Assembly: GCA_018820205.1 (NCBI GenBank)
Contig: JAHJOK010000020.1
Coordinates: 62,001 to 126,000, forward strand
Length of the DNA: 64,000 nucleotides
Reading direction: 5' to 3'
Origin: Alphaproteobacteria bacterium
GTDB taxonomy: Bacteria; Pseudomonadota; Alphaproteobacteria; Caulobacterales; Caulobacteraceae
Both the position numbers and the translations under genes were made by a program. Below the pieces are notes generated by a model, which was not told where the DNA came from, searched no databases, and was given only the letters and a program-made list of their open reading frames with translations. The number at the start of each line of letters is the position of its first letter. Within the stretch, counting starts at the first letter, position 1. Shown here piece by piece: positions 2,259 to 51,386 of this stretch.

Positions 2259-2774
2259 ATGACCGCAGGCTGGACCGAAGATCGCGTCGGCGCACTGAAG
2301 AAGCTGTGGCTGGAGGGGCAGTCCGCCTCACAGATCGCAAAACAGCTGGGTGGCGGCGTCACCAGAAACGCCGTGATCGGCAAGGTGCACCGTCTGGGCC
2401 TGTCGGGCCGTGCAACGCCGTCGCAGCCCGCGCGCACCTCGACCTTCCGCCCCGCCCGCACCCGCACGACGCCCCCGGCGCAACCTTCGGCGCCGCGTCG
2501 GATCGAGGCCGCCCAGCCTCAGGCCCGCCCGGCTCCGGTCGCGCCCAGCCTGCCGGCCATCACCGAGATGCCCGGCACCGCGACGGTGATGACCCTGGGC
2601 GCCCACATGTGCAAATGGCCGATCGGCGACCCGTCCTCGAACGAGTTCAGCTTCTGCGGCCGCCGCGCCTCGGAAGGCGTCTATTGCGTCGAACACGCCC
2701 GCGTCGCCTATCAGCCGCAGGTGAAGCGCGGCGGCAAGGAAGAGCTGGCGCGAAGCCTGCGCAGGTACATCTAG
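2259..2774 (+). CDS. gcrA: Cell-cycle regulator GcrA
   Basis: A 171-residue member of the GcrA family, the alphaproteobacterial activator that binds sigma-70 RNA polymerase and acts at methylated GANTC promoters. The N-terminal DNA-binding helices cover residues 3-50 (WTEDRVGALKKLW, then SASQIAKQLG and TRNAVIGKVHRLGL). A Pro/Ala/Arg-rich linker runs from about 52 to 108. The C-terminal sigma-interacting domain holds CKWPIGDP, FSFCGRR and YCVEHARVAY, three cysteines and a histidine spaced as in the family. The start has a GGAGGG six bases upstream. It is a single gene with its own control region, and a structured repeat follows the stop. Confidence 0.97.
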   Translation: MTAGWTEDRVGALKKLWLEGQSASQIAKQLGGGVTRNAVIGKVHRLGLSGRATPSQPARTSTFRPARTRTTPPAQPSAPRRIEAAQPQARPAPVAPSLPAITEMPGTATVMTLGAHMCKWPIGDPSSNEFSFCGRRASEGVYCVEHARVAYQPQVKRGGKEELARSLRRYI

Positions 2775-2782
2775 GCGAAGGG

Positions 2783-2822
2783 GCGCTATCGCTCGCGACG
2801 CGGTCGCTCCCTGCTTGAGCGC
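2783..2822 (-). repeat. CAAGCAG structured element, copy 1 (40 nt)
   Basis: Read on the minus strand: outer stem GCGCT/AGCGC, then CAAGCAG, then the inner hairpin GCGAC-CGC-GTCGC, then GAGCGAT. It starts nine bases after the gcrA stop and belongs to the seven-copy family listed at 41024, 44584, 44888 and 50902. The rest of the 215-base gap to apaG holds no gene that I can see. Confidence 0.75.
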
Positions 2823-41018: not shown

Positions 41019-41023
41019 TCCCG

Positions 41024-41092
41024 GCTCAAGCAGGCTGAACGGCTGATAGCCCGGGAAAGATAGGCTCAACCAAGCCGAACGGCCGACAGCCC
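41024..41092 (+). repeat. CAAGCAG structured element, copies 4 and 5 (29 nt each)
   Basis: Two tandem short-form copies start five bases after the infC stop. Copy at 41024-41052: outer GGCT/AGCC, CAAGCAG, inner GCT-GAAC-GGC, TGAT. Copy at 41064-41092: outer GGCT/AGCC, CAACCAA, inner GCC-GAAC-GGC, CGAC. They could pair within the infC 3' untranslated region ahead of its terminator. Confidence 0.7.
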
Positions 41093-42524: not shown

Positions 42525-44459
42525 ATGGTCGATCGTCTGTTCATCGTGATGTGCGCCCTGCTGGCGGTCTCGATCGGGGCGGCGACGCCGTCGCGGGCGC
42601 AGGCCCCGGCTGTCCCGCCTCTGAGCGCCTATGGCGCCCTGCCCGCGATCGAGAGCGTGGACATCTCGCCCGACGGGGCCAGCCTGGTCTATGTCCGTCA
42701 CGAAGGCGACACATCCCAGGTCGTGGCCCGCGCCCGCACCGGCGAGCCGTTGGTGGTGGTCGACACGTCGGACAGGCGCGTGCGCGGCGTCTCGTGGATA
42801 TCCCCCGATCACATCGTCATCGTTTCGGCCTCGACCGAGAAGGTCGCCTTCTTTGCCTCGCGCGCCGAGGTTCAGGTTCTGGACATCGTCAACGTCCGCA
42901 CCCAGCGGGTCGTGCGCGCCCTGAACTCGTCCGATCAACGCTCGTTCAACGCCATCTTCAACTGGCGGGCAGGCGTCTATGGCGGCAAGCCGGTGCTGTT
43001 CGCCGAGGCCGTGACGGAAAGCCCGGGCCTCTACACCTTCGATCTGTACCGCATCGACGTGGACACCGGCCGCGGGCGTCGTCACGCCCAGGGCGACAGC
43101 GACACGCGGGGCTTTCTGGTCGGGCGGGACGGATCCGTTCCGGCGCGACTGGCCTACAACTCGGAAAACGGCCGCTGGCGGGTGTCGTCGCGCAGCGGCG
43201 GCGGCTGGCGCGACATCCACAACGTCAGCGCCCTGCTGGACGAGCCGGGCCTGTACGGCTTTGGACGTACACTGGACACCGTCGCCATCGGCGAGGAAGT
43301 CGACGGAAAATGGCGCCTGATCGAGGTCTCGCTGGCGGACGGCTCCGAACAGGGGCGCACCGATCTGGGCCCCAACCCCAACCGCATCTACAAGGACGCC
43401 GAGGGCGCCGTGGTCGGCGTCGGTTTCATGGCCACCTATCAGGACTATGAATTCTTCGAACCGGCCCTGGCCCAGGCCTGGGAGCTGCTGAAGACCTCCC
43501 TGCCCGGCCGCCAGCTGTTCCTGTCGTCCTACAGCGACGACTACAACGTCGTGGTGTTCTACATGGAGGGGTCGGGCGAGCCGGGCTCCTATTTCATGTA
43601 TGACGCCGCCGCCCAGCGGGTGTCCCTGATCGGCAAGGCCTATCCCGCCATCTCCGGCGAGAACGTCGCGGAGGTCCGGATCGTCAACTACAAGGCCGCC
43701 GACGGGCTGGACCTGTTTGGCTATCTGACCCTGCCGCCGGGCCGCGAGGCCAGCGACCTGCCCCTGATCGCCCTTCCCCACGGCGGGCCGGCCGCGCGCG
43801 ACACGGCCGGGTTCGACTATTGGGCCCAGGCCCTGGCGTCCCGCGGCTATGCTGTGTTCCAGCCCCAGTTCCGCGGCACCTCGGGCCTCGGCTCGGGTCT
43901 GCTCGAGGCCGGCTATGGCGAATGGGGCAAGAAGATGCAGAGCGACGTCTCCGACGGCGTCCGCTTTCTAGCCGAGCGCGGCACCGTCGATCCCGACCGC
44001 GTCTGCGTCGTCGGGGCCAGCTATGGCGGCTATGTCGCCCTGGCCGGCATGGCGCTGGAGCCCGGAACCTATCGCTGCGCCGTGTCCGTGGCCGGGGTCT
44101 CGGACCTGCGGGCCATGCTTCAGGAAGAACAGCGCCAGGGCGCACGCGGCGACGCCAACCCGGCCATCCGCTACTGGAGCCGCTTCATGGGGGCCAGCGG
44201 CGTCAGCGACACCAGCCTGGACGCCCTGTCGCCTGCGCGTCAGGCCGGAGCGGTGCAGGGACCGATCCTGCTGATCCATGGCCGCAACGACACCGTGGTG
44301 CCCTTCGCCCAGAGCGAGTTGATGGCCCAGGCCATGAGCGGACGCGCCCGACTGGTCGCCCTGGACGGCGAGGATCACTTCCTGTCGAACGCCGCCACCC
44401 GCCAGCAGATGCTGTCGGAAACGGTCGAGTTCCTCGAGGCGAACAATCCGCCGAGATAG
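42525..44459 (+). CDS. Exported S9 family (prolyl oligopeptidase-type) peptidase
   Basis: A 644-residue serine peptidase. Signal peptide LFIVMCALLAVSIGAATPSRAQA, a beta-propeller-like N-terminal half (SVDISPDGASLVYVRHEGDTSQVVARAR...), then an alpha/beta hydrolase domain from about residue 400. The catalytic Ser is in VVGASYGGYVAL (about residue 498), Asp in LIHGRNDTVVP, and His in LDGEDHFLS. It should cut short, often proline-containing peptides in the periplasm. It is the second of the two genes that separate infC from rpmI. Confidence 0.92.
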   Translation: MVDRLFIVMCALLAVSIGAATPSRAQAPAVPPLSAYGALPAIESVDISPDGASLVYVRHEGDTSQVVARARTGEPLVVVDTSDRRVRGVSWISPDHIVIVSASTEKVAFFASRAEVQVLDIVNVRTQRVVRALNSSDQRSFNAIFNWRAGVYGGKPVLFAEAVTESPGLYTFDLYRIDVDTGRGRRHAQGDSDTRGFLVGRDGSVPARLAYNSENGRWRVSSRSGGGWRDIHNVSALLDEPGLYGFGRTLDTVAIGEEVDGKWRLIEVSLADGSEQGRTDLGPNPNRIYKDAEGAVVGVGFMATYQDYEFFEPALAQAWELLKTSLPGRQLFLSSYSDDYNVVVFYMEGSGEPGSYFMYDAAAQRVSLIGKAYPAISGENVAEVRIVNYKAADGLDLFGYLTLPPGREASDLPLIALPHGGPAARDTAGFDYWAQALASRGYAVFQPQFRGTSGLGSGLLEAGYGEWGKKMQSDVSDGVRFLAERGTVDPDRVCVVGASYGGYVALAGMALEPGTYRCAVSVAGVSDLRAMLQEEQRQGARGDANPAIRYWSRFMGASGVSDTSLDALSPARQAGAVQGPILLIHGRNDTVVPFAQSELMAQAMSGRARLVALDGEDHFLSNAATRQQMLSETVEFLEANNPPR

Positions 44460-44526
44460 GGGCTCGAGGCCAGACTCCGCTTGCGTTTGCGCGCCGGTTC
44501 CCCTACTAGCCGCGCCTTCGCGTACG

Positions 44527-44613
44527 GACCGCCGGGCGAACAGGCATGCCTGGGCGGTCTTTGAACCAGTGCTTCCAAACCTAGGGCTCAAGTAGCCCGA
44601 AGGGCGGTAGCCC
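44527..44613 (+). promoter_or_regulatory. Structured leader of rpmI, including CAAGCAG element copy 6
   Basis: The 170-base region before rpmI has a hairpin at 44527-44559 (GACCGCC with GGCGGTC) and, at 44584-44613, a short-form element: outer GGGCT/AGCCC, CAAGTAG, inner CCC-GAA-GGG, CGGT. It ends 16 bases before the start codon, next to the AAGGAA ribosome binding site. The L20 protein regulates its operon from this position in other bacteria; that this structure is such a site is inference. Confidence 0.5.
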
Positions 44614-44629
44614 CAAAAAGGAACTGAAA

Positions 44630-44827
44630 ATGCCGAAGCTCAAGACGAAGTCGGGCGCCAAGAAGCGCTTCAAATTCACCGCGACAGGCAAGGTCAAGGC
44701 CGGCGTTGCGGGCAAGCGTCACCGCTTGATCAGCCACAACTCCAAATACATCCGCCAGAACCGCGGCACCTCGGTCATGGCCGACGCCGACGCCAAGAAG
44801 ATCAAGTCCTACATGCCCTACGCGTAA
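44630..44827 (+). CDS. rpmI: 50S ribosomal protein L35
   Basis: A 65-residue basic protein: [46 protein letters not shown] is the L35 signature. Length and Lys/Arg content are normal. AAGGAA lies eight bases upstream of the ATG. It starts the rpmI-rplT operon, with a structured repeat in its leader and another in the 121-base spacer before rplT. Confidence 0.97.
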
Positions 44828-44887
44828 GCGTCGGCATCCAGACCCAGGCTTCTCACCGCATCGTTCGCACGAATTTGAAATCAGGAT

Positions 44888-44927
44888 TCCCTCAAGCAGT
44901 GAGCGCCCGCGGCGCGAACGACAGGGA
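44888..44927 (+). repeat. CAAGCAG structured element, copy 7 (40 nt), before rplT
   Basis: Outer stem TCCCT/AGGGA, CAAGCAG, TGA, inner hairpin GCGCC-CGC-GGCGC, GAACGAC. Both stems differ from copies 1 and 2 and stay fully paired. It ends 21 bases before the rplT ATG, so folding could affect rplT translation. Confidence 0.75.
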
Positions 44928-44948
44928 CCCTTCCGAAGGAAGATAATC

Positions 44949-45302
44949 ATGGCTCGCGTCAAAAGGGGCGTCGTATCGCACGCCCGCCACAAGAAGGTTC
45001 TGGAACAGGCCAAGGGCTTTTCCGGCCGCCGCAAGAATACCATCCGCACGGCCAAGGCCGCCGTGGACCGCGCCGGGCAATACGCCTATCGCGACCGCCG
45101 CATCAACAAGCGCAATTTCCGCGCCCTGTGGATCCAGCGCATCAACGCCGCCGCCCGTCAGGAAGGCTTCACCTACTCGCAGTTCATGCACGGCCTGTCG
45201 AAGGCCGGGATCGAGCTGGACCGCAAGGTCCTGGCCGCGATCGCCATGGAAGGCACGGGCTTCGCCGACATCGCCGCCAAGGTGCGCGACGCGCTGAAGT
45301 AA
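44949..45302 (+). CDS. rplT: 50S ribosomal protein L20
   Basis: A 117-residue L20, an early large-subunit assembly protein that in E. coli and Bacillus also binds its own mRNA to repress the operon. [71 protein letters not shown] is fully typical. GAAGGA precedes the ATG. A strong terminator follows. Confidence 0.98.
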
Positions 45303-50901: not shown

Positions 50902-50991
50902 GCGCTCAAGCAGCGCGCGACCGCGTCGCGAGCGGTAGCGCCCCTAAGAATGCGCTCAAGCAGCGAGGATCCGCGAGCCGGGCGTTAGCGC
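50902..50991 (+). repeat. CAAGCAG structured element, copies 2 and 3 (40 nt each, tandem)
   Basis: Copy at 50902-50941: outer GCGCT/AGCGC, CAAGCAG, CGC, inner GCGAC-CGC-GTCGC, GAGCGGT. Copy at 50952-50991: same outer stem, CAAGCAG, CGA, inner GGATC-CGC-GAGCC (one A-G mismatch), GGGCGTT. The spacing between copies is ten bases. They fill the 154-base gap between hisN and the XRE gene. Relative to those minus-strand genes they are in reverse orientation. Confidence 0.75.
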
Positions 50992-50999
50992 CCTTGAAA

Positions 51000-51386
51000 T
51001 CAGGAAGGCGAAACTTCGCCTTCCGTGTGAAGCGATTTCGCCAGGTCCAGAAGACGGCGGCGCGGACGCTCGCCCAGCTGGTAATAGGCCTGGATCAGGT
51101 CGAGAGTTTCCTTCCTGGAAAACATCTCCCCGCCATTGGCGTTGGCGGTCTCCTTGCGTTCGATGGCCTCGGCCAGACCGTCGTAGAAATAGCTGATCGG
51201 CGTTTCCAGCGCCTCGGACAGCTGCCACAGGCGCGCCGCCGAGATGCGGTTGGCGCCGCATTCGTATTTCTGGATCTGCTGAAAGCGGATGCCGACCTGA
51301 ACGGCCAGCTGCTGCTGGGTCAGGCCCAGCAGGCGACGACGGCGGCGCAGACGCCTGCCCAGATGAAGATCGATATCGGTGGCCAT
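51000..51386 (-). CDS. XRE-family transcriptional regulator
   Basis: A 128-residue regulator with a Cro/CI-type helix-turn-helix at residues 8-65: [62 protein letters not shown]. The remaining half is helical (ETLDLIQAYYQLGERPRRRLLDLAKSLH). This is a common alphaproteobacterial single-domain type without ligand or protease domain. AAGGGG precedes the ATG. Targets unknown. Upstream a divergent gene for a small membrane protein starts 190 bases away. Confidence 0.9.
   Translation of the reverse strand: MATDIDLHLGRRLRRRRRLLGLTQQQLAVQVGIRFQQIQKYECGANRISAARLWQLSEALETPISYFYDGLAEAIERKETANANGGEMFSRKETLDLIQAYYQLGERPRRRLLDLAKSLHTEGEVSPS

Follow-up and report, generated by a model that had tools for sequence, protein, structure and literature searches.

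A structurally conserved family of short palindromic repeats with a CAAGYA/GRT internal loop in Brevundimonas and other Alphaproteobacteria

Introduction

Among the closest described counterparts of the repeats reported here, which share an internal loop of CAAGYA and GRT, is the GTAG REP with its RAYT (Y1) enzyme. Both are imperfect palindromes of 20-40 nt, present in many copies, sited at gene ends and following the logic of a single-stranded hairpin. The present family differs in that GTAG/CGTC tags are rare, the internal loop is the conserved part, pairs are mostly head-to-tail, copies also occur in rRNA and proteins, and Y1_Tnp is found in only one of 37 carrier genomes. CGTC REPs are characterised in PMC3733652 as alphaproteobacterial elements with no dedicated transposase, some of them lying inside genes, with stems of 8-9 bp, loops of 4-5 nt, an unpaired CGTC end, CCA-type tails and mainly HH dimers. 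These traits of stem, loop, tag, tail and dimer are not the rule in the CAAGYA/GRT family. The same paper mentions untagged REP-like families as well as RPE palindromes that occur inserted in frame inside proteins (PMC3733652). In-frame insertion into coding genes is common to RPE and the present family, a likeness drawn from the description of RPE, whereas the present units are 26-40 nt long, possess the fixed CAAGYA/GRT loop and are found in free-living genera and viral contigs. The CIR of Caulobacter, given as about 110 bp with a GANTC site in PMC2229807, is likewise intergenic, structured and alphaproteobacterial. MITEs, to which PMC3733652 assigns a length of 70-300 bp, are also small, non-coding and dispersed; here, however, the unit is far shorter and has no regular target duplication.

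The repeats are short imperfect palindromes in many dispersed copies, which is one of the marks of a REP, and the family is real, widespread and structurally conserved. It works like REP or RPE. Since Y1_Tnp occurs in one of 37 genomes, and since there is no tag, no fixed target duplication and no partner gene shared among the compared loci, it lies outside the GTAG/RAYT and CGTC families by the features tested. The original prediction knew of no named element that fits: the kind of element proved to be known already (REP/RPE-like), while no name for this particular family turned up in the literature searched, a search reaching few subscription papers. Sequence strings of the unit returned no bacterial-repeat paper among the matches listed.

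Copies in the window

Seven copies had been predicted in the window (the whole stretch of 64,000 nucleotides that was analysed). All seven stretches read as they had been written, and five were recovered as firm family members by covariance models, while one is marginal and one was not recovered. Model R1 was built from 25 copies and model R2 from the minimal form; both were built partly from the five firm window copies, whose own scores are therefore high by construction, so that the independent evidence comes from the other copies. Four copies are of the 40-nt long form, with arms GCGCT/AGCGC or TCCCT/AGGGA. The copy at 50902-50941 (plus strand; R1 65.1 bits) consists of outer arms (50902-50906/50937-50941), CAAGCA (50907-50912) facing GGT (50934-50936), two G-C pairs (50913-50914/50932-50933) and an inner stem (50917-50921/50925-50929) with the loop CGC. 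A spacer of 10 nt (50942-50951) separates it from a second head-to-tail copy of 40 nt at 50952-50991 (plus strand; R1 59.2 bits), the 3' end of which lies 8 nt from the stop codon of an opposite-strand gene (51000-51386). The long-form copy at 2783-2822 (minus strand; R1 64.4 bits) is antisense to a gcrA-like gene (2259-2774, plus strand; named by NCBIfam) and lies 8 nt past its stop codon.

The remaining copies, all on the plus strand, accompany genes which we take to be infC, rpmI and rplT, judging by their sequences and, for rplT, by its translation. The long-form copy in the rplT leader (44888-44927; R1 58.1 bits) has arms TCCCT/AGGGA and is followed 21 nt downstream by the ATG at 44949, with a CTTCC-GAA-GGAAG hairpin holding the Shine-Dalgarno sequence in between (44930-44942); such a GAA-loop hairpin also follows some other leader copies. 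A minimal-form copy in the rpmI leader (44584-44613; R2 47 bits) ends 16 nt before the ATG at 44630. Past the infC stop lies the marginal minimal-form copy (41022-41052; R2 E 0.007, R1 E 0.32), followed at 41064-41092 by a possible decayed minimal-form copy with CAACCAA, which was recognised by eye only and was recovered by neither R1 nor R2 at E<=0.5. The strand predicted as a fixed CAAGCAG is thus better written CAAGYA: it reads CAAGTAG in the 44584 copy and CAACCAA at 41064, and is otherwise near constant. Single copies have ordinary fold energies, at least 15 of 200 shuffles folding as well in seven of the eight stretches folded, so the case rests on the family and not on any one copy. In line with the original prediction's lack of a fitting named element, Rfam gave no match in the window at the gathering threshold.

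Architecture and covariation

Each unit is composed of a variable outer arm, a fixed CT-CAAGYA strand, an inner hairpin of variable length, a fixed GRT-AG strand and the complementary arm. Stem pairing was counted on model hits, using the 92 of 115 unique rows that are exactly 40 nt, as the set A1 (25 rows kept; eight distinct rows and one repeat skipped) had been picked for pairing and its structure counts lean towards structure. Of 1104 stem cells, 1055 were Watson-Crick, and at eight of the twelve pair positions at least two Watson-Crick types occurred, in agreement with the covarying stems of the original prediction. Its view that simple duplication does not account for the copies was also supported: the stems vary from copy to copy and the internal loop stays. 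The rows of set A2 were likewise picked for pairing and its covariation measures lean towards structure; in its shuffle test, 38 of 500 shuffles did as well on one of the five measures and 66 on another. The long form also keeps tandem G-A and A-G mismatches (75/92 and 78/92, respectively).

The other stem cells held 13 G-T/T-G, 14 A-C/C-A and 22 other combinations. In an RNA selected on one strand, G-U pairs are expected in excess. G-T and A-C near-pairs are about equally rare here (13 against 14 of 1104 cells), with no overall strand preference, which may count against an RNA-only reading. Split by gene context, the near-pairs number two G-T and one A-C for plus and four G-T and ten A-C for minus; the minus-strand near-pairs lean as an RNA view predicts, on small numbers.

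Among 287 elements from other loci (L093 and up), triloops were GNA in 138 of 168 cases and TNC in one, and tetraloops were GNNA in 32 of 34, only four of the 34 being GNRA; the other 85 elements have larger loops or tandem mismatches. Counted as distinct triloop cores, GNA makes up 14 of 35, and the GNA excess is partly due to amplification of a few cores. The loop of the Brevundimonas long form is CGC, not GNA. GNA and GNNA loops on G-C stems, e.g. GCGAAGC, are described in PMC4686876 as extraordinarily stable DNA mini-hairpins, and the abundance of GNA loops would favour plus-strand DNA as the folded form. Beyond the unit there is little conservation save a C/A-rich 3' flank, in which no CCA consensus was seen.

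Abundance and taxonomic range

Further copies in the source genome were anticipated by the original prediction and were found by several routes. The loose pattern CTCAAGCAG-N(10-30)-AGCG gave 43 hits, in which certain places count double, whereas its reverse gave 12. R1 returned at least 70 hits at E<=1, of which 64 had E<=0.01, and R2 returned 38 at E<=0.01, six of these places being absent from the R1 list; the total of about 70 copies is a lower limit. All 37 genomes searched in this Brevundimonas-type genus, the source genome included, carry the family by covariance model search, with from at least 9 to at least 93 copies each, and wherever a contig with the 40-nt form bears a name, it is Brevundimonas; the window is accordingly taken to be Brevundimonas. 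A search for plasmids with a 105-nt stretch of the window gave no match.

In other families the shortest units, of 26 nt, read GCGCT-CAAGYA-GCGAAGC-GRT-AGCGC and are often arrayed head-to-tail, and a pattern scan of genome contigs yielded at least 117 stretches. On contigs L153-L269, at least three complementary outer pairs were present in 69 of 137 pattern rows against about two expected at 1/64, an unselected test in which the rows are not independent. The outer-paired rows come mainly from Brevundimonas, Erythrobacter, Qipengyuania, Porphyrobacter, Robiginitomaculum, Parvularcula, Asticcacaulis, Methyloligella, Methyloceanibacter and Rhodobacterales, and also from three contigs titled actinobacterial MAGs (two Euzebyaceae and one Nitriliruptorales), where misbinning could be the cause. 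Rows that lack outer pairing come largely from unrelated taxa and look like chance matches. The spread outside the genus is patchy: in an even draw of Alphaproteobacteria, R2 matched 28 of 385 genomes (20 of 276 genera).

Position and orientation relative to genes

Copies lie at gene edges and on either strand of the genes. At the 113 places with both neighbours called, the closer gene is on the 3' side of the repeat in 73 and on the 5' side in 40; without the rplT loci the figures are 61 and 37 (p 0.02), the preference being seen at starts (17 vs 4) and at stops (36 vs 16). A start codon follows the 3' end of 31 copies in gene direction by less than 60 nt, and for 30 of these the distance is 8-25 nt, a good part of them being rplT orthologues. 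The largest class is antisense next to a stop codon, with 36 copies within 30 nt. Among 95 close pairs, 79 are head-to-tail, 16 have their 5' ends facing and none have their 3' ends facing; the head-to-tail spacers are typically about 9 nt (7-10 nt in 58/79). Hairpins with arms of at least 5 in the flanks occur on the 3' side in 21 of 125 (seven being rplT orthologues) and on the 5' side in 7 of 125, against 6.3 in shuffles. The polarity of the 3' end towards the gene and the leader hairpins are hints that the repeats may do more than spread selfishly.

In the source genome 83 proteins neighbour the repeat, of which 30, mainly 3'-adjacent, were scanned for families. Those over curated cut-offs include gapR, flgH, gcrA, cpdR, fabH-type, asd, lpd, HPr, rpsD, yebC, infB, obgE, mraY and rpmE; a truncated secA fell below its cut-off, and ten of the 30 had no family match at E<=1e-10. 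The G012 chromosome has 49 copies, 35 of which fall in the half of the genome around dnaA, a weak trend from one genome. Replication-strand bias was rejected in the same genome, as 21 of 49 copies run with the fork.

Copies within proteins, rRNA operons and phage-like clusters

There are 28 element positions within called genes (loci L153 and up), several of which represent homologous copies or arrays. The source genome has one copy within a fabH-type gene (C34:13661). In genome G012 a copy is inserted in frame in SelO and falls opposite a gap when that protein is aligned with PDB 6eac. All seven copies examined in rRNA operons are sense. Salipiger abyssi has three of them, within 23S inserts; genome G388 has one in a 23S gene and one ahead of a 16S gene; a 16S-23S spacer of Phaeobacter and the stretch between 5S and tRNA-Met in Roseobacter hold one each. 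In G388 the same pair spacing is seen at four places, of which one was examined. The 23S rRNA gene of Salipiger abyssi (L221 367-3959, minus strand) is about 3.6 kb long, with a copy-bearing insert of about 700 nt near position 570 of the Phaeobacter gene.

Exact matches on viral contigs amounted to 103 stretches, one of them within a cluster of terminase, portal, head and tail genes; many of the repeat-bearing viral contigs may be prophage or host DNA. In two phage-like clusters, presumably GTA-like, a copy occupies the same place just past the stop of a tail-type gene (L379 7639-7666 and L345 6349-6376), and the reading frame of the next gene seems to run through it.

Turnover at orthologous sites

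Orthologous sites within the genus differ in whether they carry a copy. Among 30 congeneric loci, 14 have a copy in the rplT leader, decayed ones counted, and an empty leader reads GAATTTGAAGGAATAGCGACATG or near it; on a tree of 27 taxa, three short loci being left out, occupancy requires five changes, at least four of them forced. The rpmI leader copy is intact, decayed or absent in congeners. At the infC tail, R2 matched one of 17 aligned congeners (G033, the closest one, with a marginal short copy, E 0.008) and none of the other 16; genome G035 has a suggestive opposite-strand sequence past infC which R2 did not recover. The 50902 pair is missing from the corresponding site of G033 (L304 3830-4020), which holds a different repeat, of GAGTGGC units plus an inverted copy.

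The SelO loop comes in two lengths, 15-22 residues at 12 of the 30 loci and 5-7 residues at the other 18. R1 matched the unit in 11 of the 12 long loops, with weak scores where it is decayed, and in no short loop. Occupancy among the 30 congeners requires 12 changes on the selO tree, or 11 without genome G008, which was counted as occupied by loop length alone; at least ten are forced either way. It is no more clustered on the tree than in shuffles. Turnover could include short-tract recombination and deletion, and the changes on the trees could be losses.

Search for a mover and comparison with other element types

The putative mover is not the usual REP transposase (RAYT). Y1_Tnp was not detected in the source genome, at 92% completeness, and was detected in one of 37 genomes of the genus, as compared with 5 of 14 in control rings. 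No non-generic neighbour gene was common to the compared loci, clustering of which gave generic proteins and rRNA operons. Tags of the GTAG/CGTC type, on either strand and within 6 nt outside the ends, number 12 counts per 125 long-set places and 16 per 286 short-set places; a GTAG/CGTC REP was rejected on the rarity of the tag together with the single Y1_Tnp genome. Direct repeats of 5 nt flank 13 of 219 copies, against 4.4 expected and a maximum of 9 in 100 re-deals; for this count 140 array members were dropped, tandem arrays having largely produced an earlier apparent excess. These direct repeats have no constant register, and a MITE with a target duplication of fixed length was rejected. 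CIR was rejected as only one of 125 long-set copies and one of 287 short-set copies contain GANTC, an integron attC as GTTRRRY occurs in 1 of 125, and a plus-strand intrinsic terminator as a single copy of 408 has T4 in the next 12 nt (38 copies do on the opposite strand).

Interpretation

With a probability of roughly six in ten, the window copies represent untagged, REP/RPE-like mobile palindromic DNA that would be moved in trans as a folded single strand, mobility being inferred from sequence comparison. The plus strand would fold as single-stranded DNA with a GNA-loop mini-hairpin core, and a trans-acting enzyme would recognise the internal loop CAAGYA/GRT and move or copy the unit. Copies would then survive where they do least harm, beside gene ends or in surface loops of proteins and rRNA, and some, e.g. 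those of the rpmI and rplT leaders, may have been co-opted as UTR hairpins. The sequence-specific binder that the original prediction suggested from changing stems and near-constant strands is likewise a putative one.

The main rival is a cis-regulatory RNA motif, in which a protein, bound to the CAAGYA/GRT loop of leader and 3' UTR copies, would set how the mRNAs of core genes are translated or degraded. The 30 of 31 start-proximal copies at 8-25 nt from a start (many being rplT orthologues), several with a Shine-Dalgarno hairpin behind them, would suit such a motif, as would the core-gene neighbours (rplT, rpsD, infB, obgE, gapR, gcrA and cpdR) and the sense orientation of 7/7 rRNA copies. 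It is nevertheless unlikely: the largest class is antisense next to stops (36 copies within 30 nt), there is no overall G-U excess, the triloops are GNA and not GNRA, and gain and loss are quick even in the rplT leader. A single-strand RNA element is not supported, the copies being found in both orientations to genes, with no overall wobble strand preference and, in other loci, mostly with DNA-type GNA loops.

Two further explanations were considered. Replication slippage and template switching alone might keep the palindromes perfect and shuffle them with no dedicated enzyme, and strictly Watson-Crick covariation with no strand preference fits such inverted-repeat correction, as does the failure to find a Y1 transposase in 36 of 37 genomes; we regard it as distinctly unlikely, for it leaves unexplained how a single fixed, asymmetric loop came to lie at many unrelated sites, in different genera and on viral contigs. 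A protein-binding or nucleoid site at gene borders, extruded as a hairpin or cruciform, would account for the polarity (61 vs 37 without rplT loci, p 0.02), the lack of facing 3' ends among 95 close pairs and the regular head-to-tail spacing near 9 nt, and is improbable given the copies within coding genes, 23S rRNA and phage genes and the fast turnover.

Within the preferred reading of mobile palindromic DNA, it is possible, and proposed here only tentatively, that the family is a new class of mobile ssDNA hairpin. Such a class would have an internal-loop signal (CAAGYA/GRT) between free stems, a hyperstable d(GCGAAGC)-type DNA mini-hairpin as cap in the short form and a non-RAYT enzyme, would occur in Alphaproteobacteria, phage-type clusters and a few apparent actinobacterial MAG copies, and would enter 23S rRNA and, in frame, proteins. 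As a case for study the family is clean, untagged and strongly covarying; it combines insertions in rRNA and, in frame, in proteins with viral-contig copies, and turns over fast inside a single genus. Finding the enzyme becomes a problem for comparative genomics and pull-down, and pairs of sites with and without a copy (selO, rplT and infC) are ready for the study of effects on fitness and translation.

Associated sequences

A longer repeat (CTTCCCACTTTTGCTAAAAATGC ... GCATTTTTGGCCGCAAAACC) is often found beside the mini-hairpins and arrays of genome G039 (L094-L122). In the window a second, non-repeated hairpin (GGACCGCCGGGCGAACAGGCATGCCTGGGCGGTC) lies ahead of rpmI at 44526-44559. Rfam gave no match at E<=5 for window positions 44450-44960, which cover this hairpin; it is a candidate ribosomal-protein leader, and its core is present with no more than three substitutions in 30 of 30 congeneric loci.
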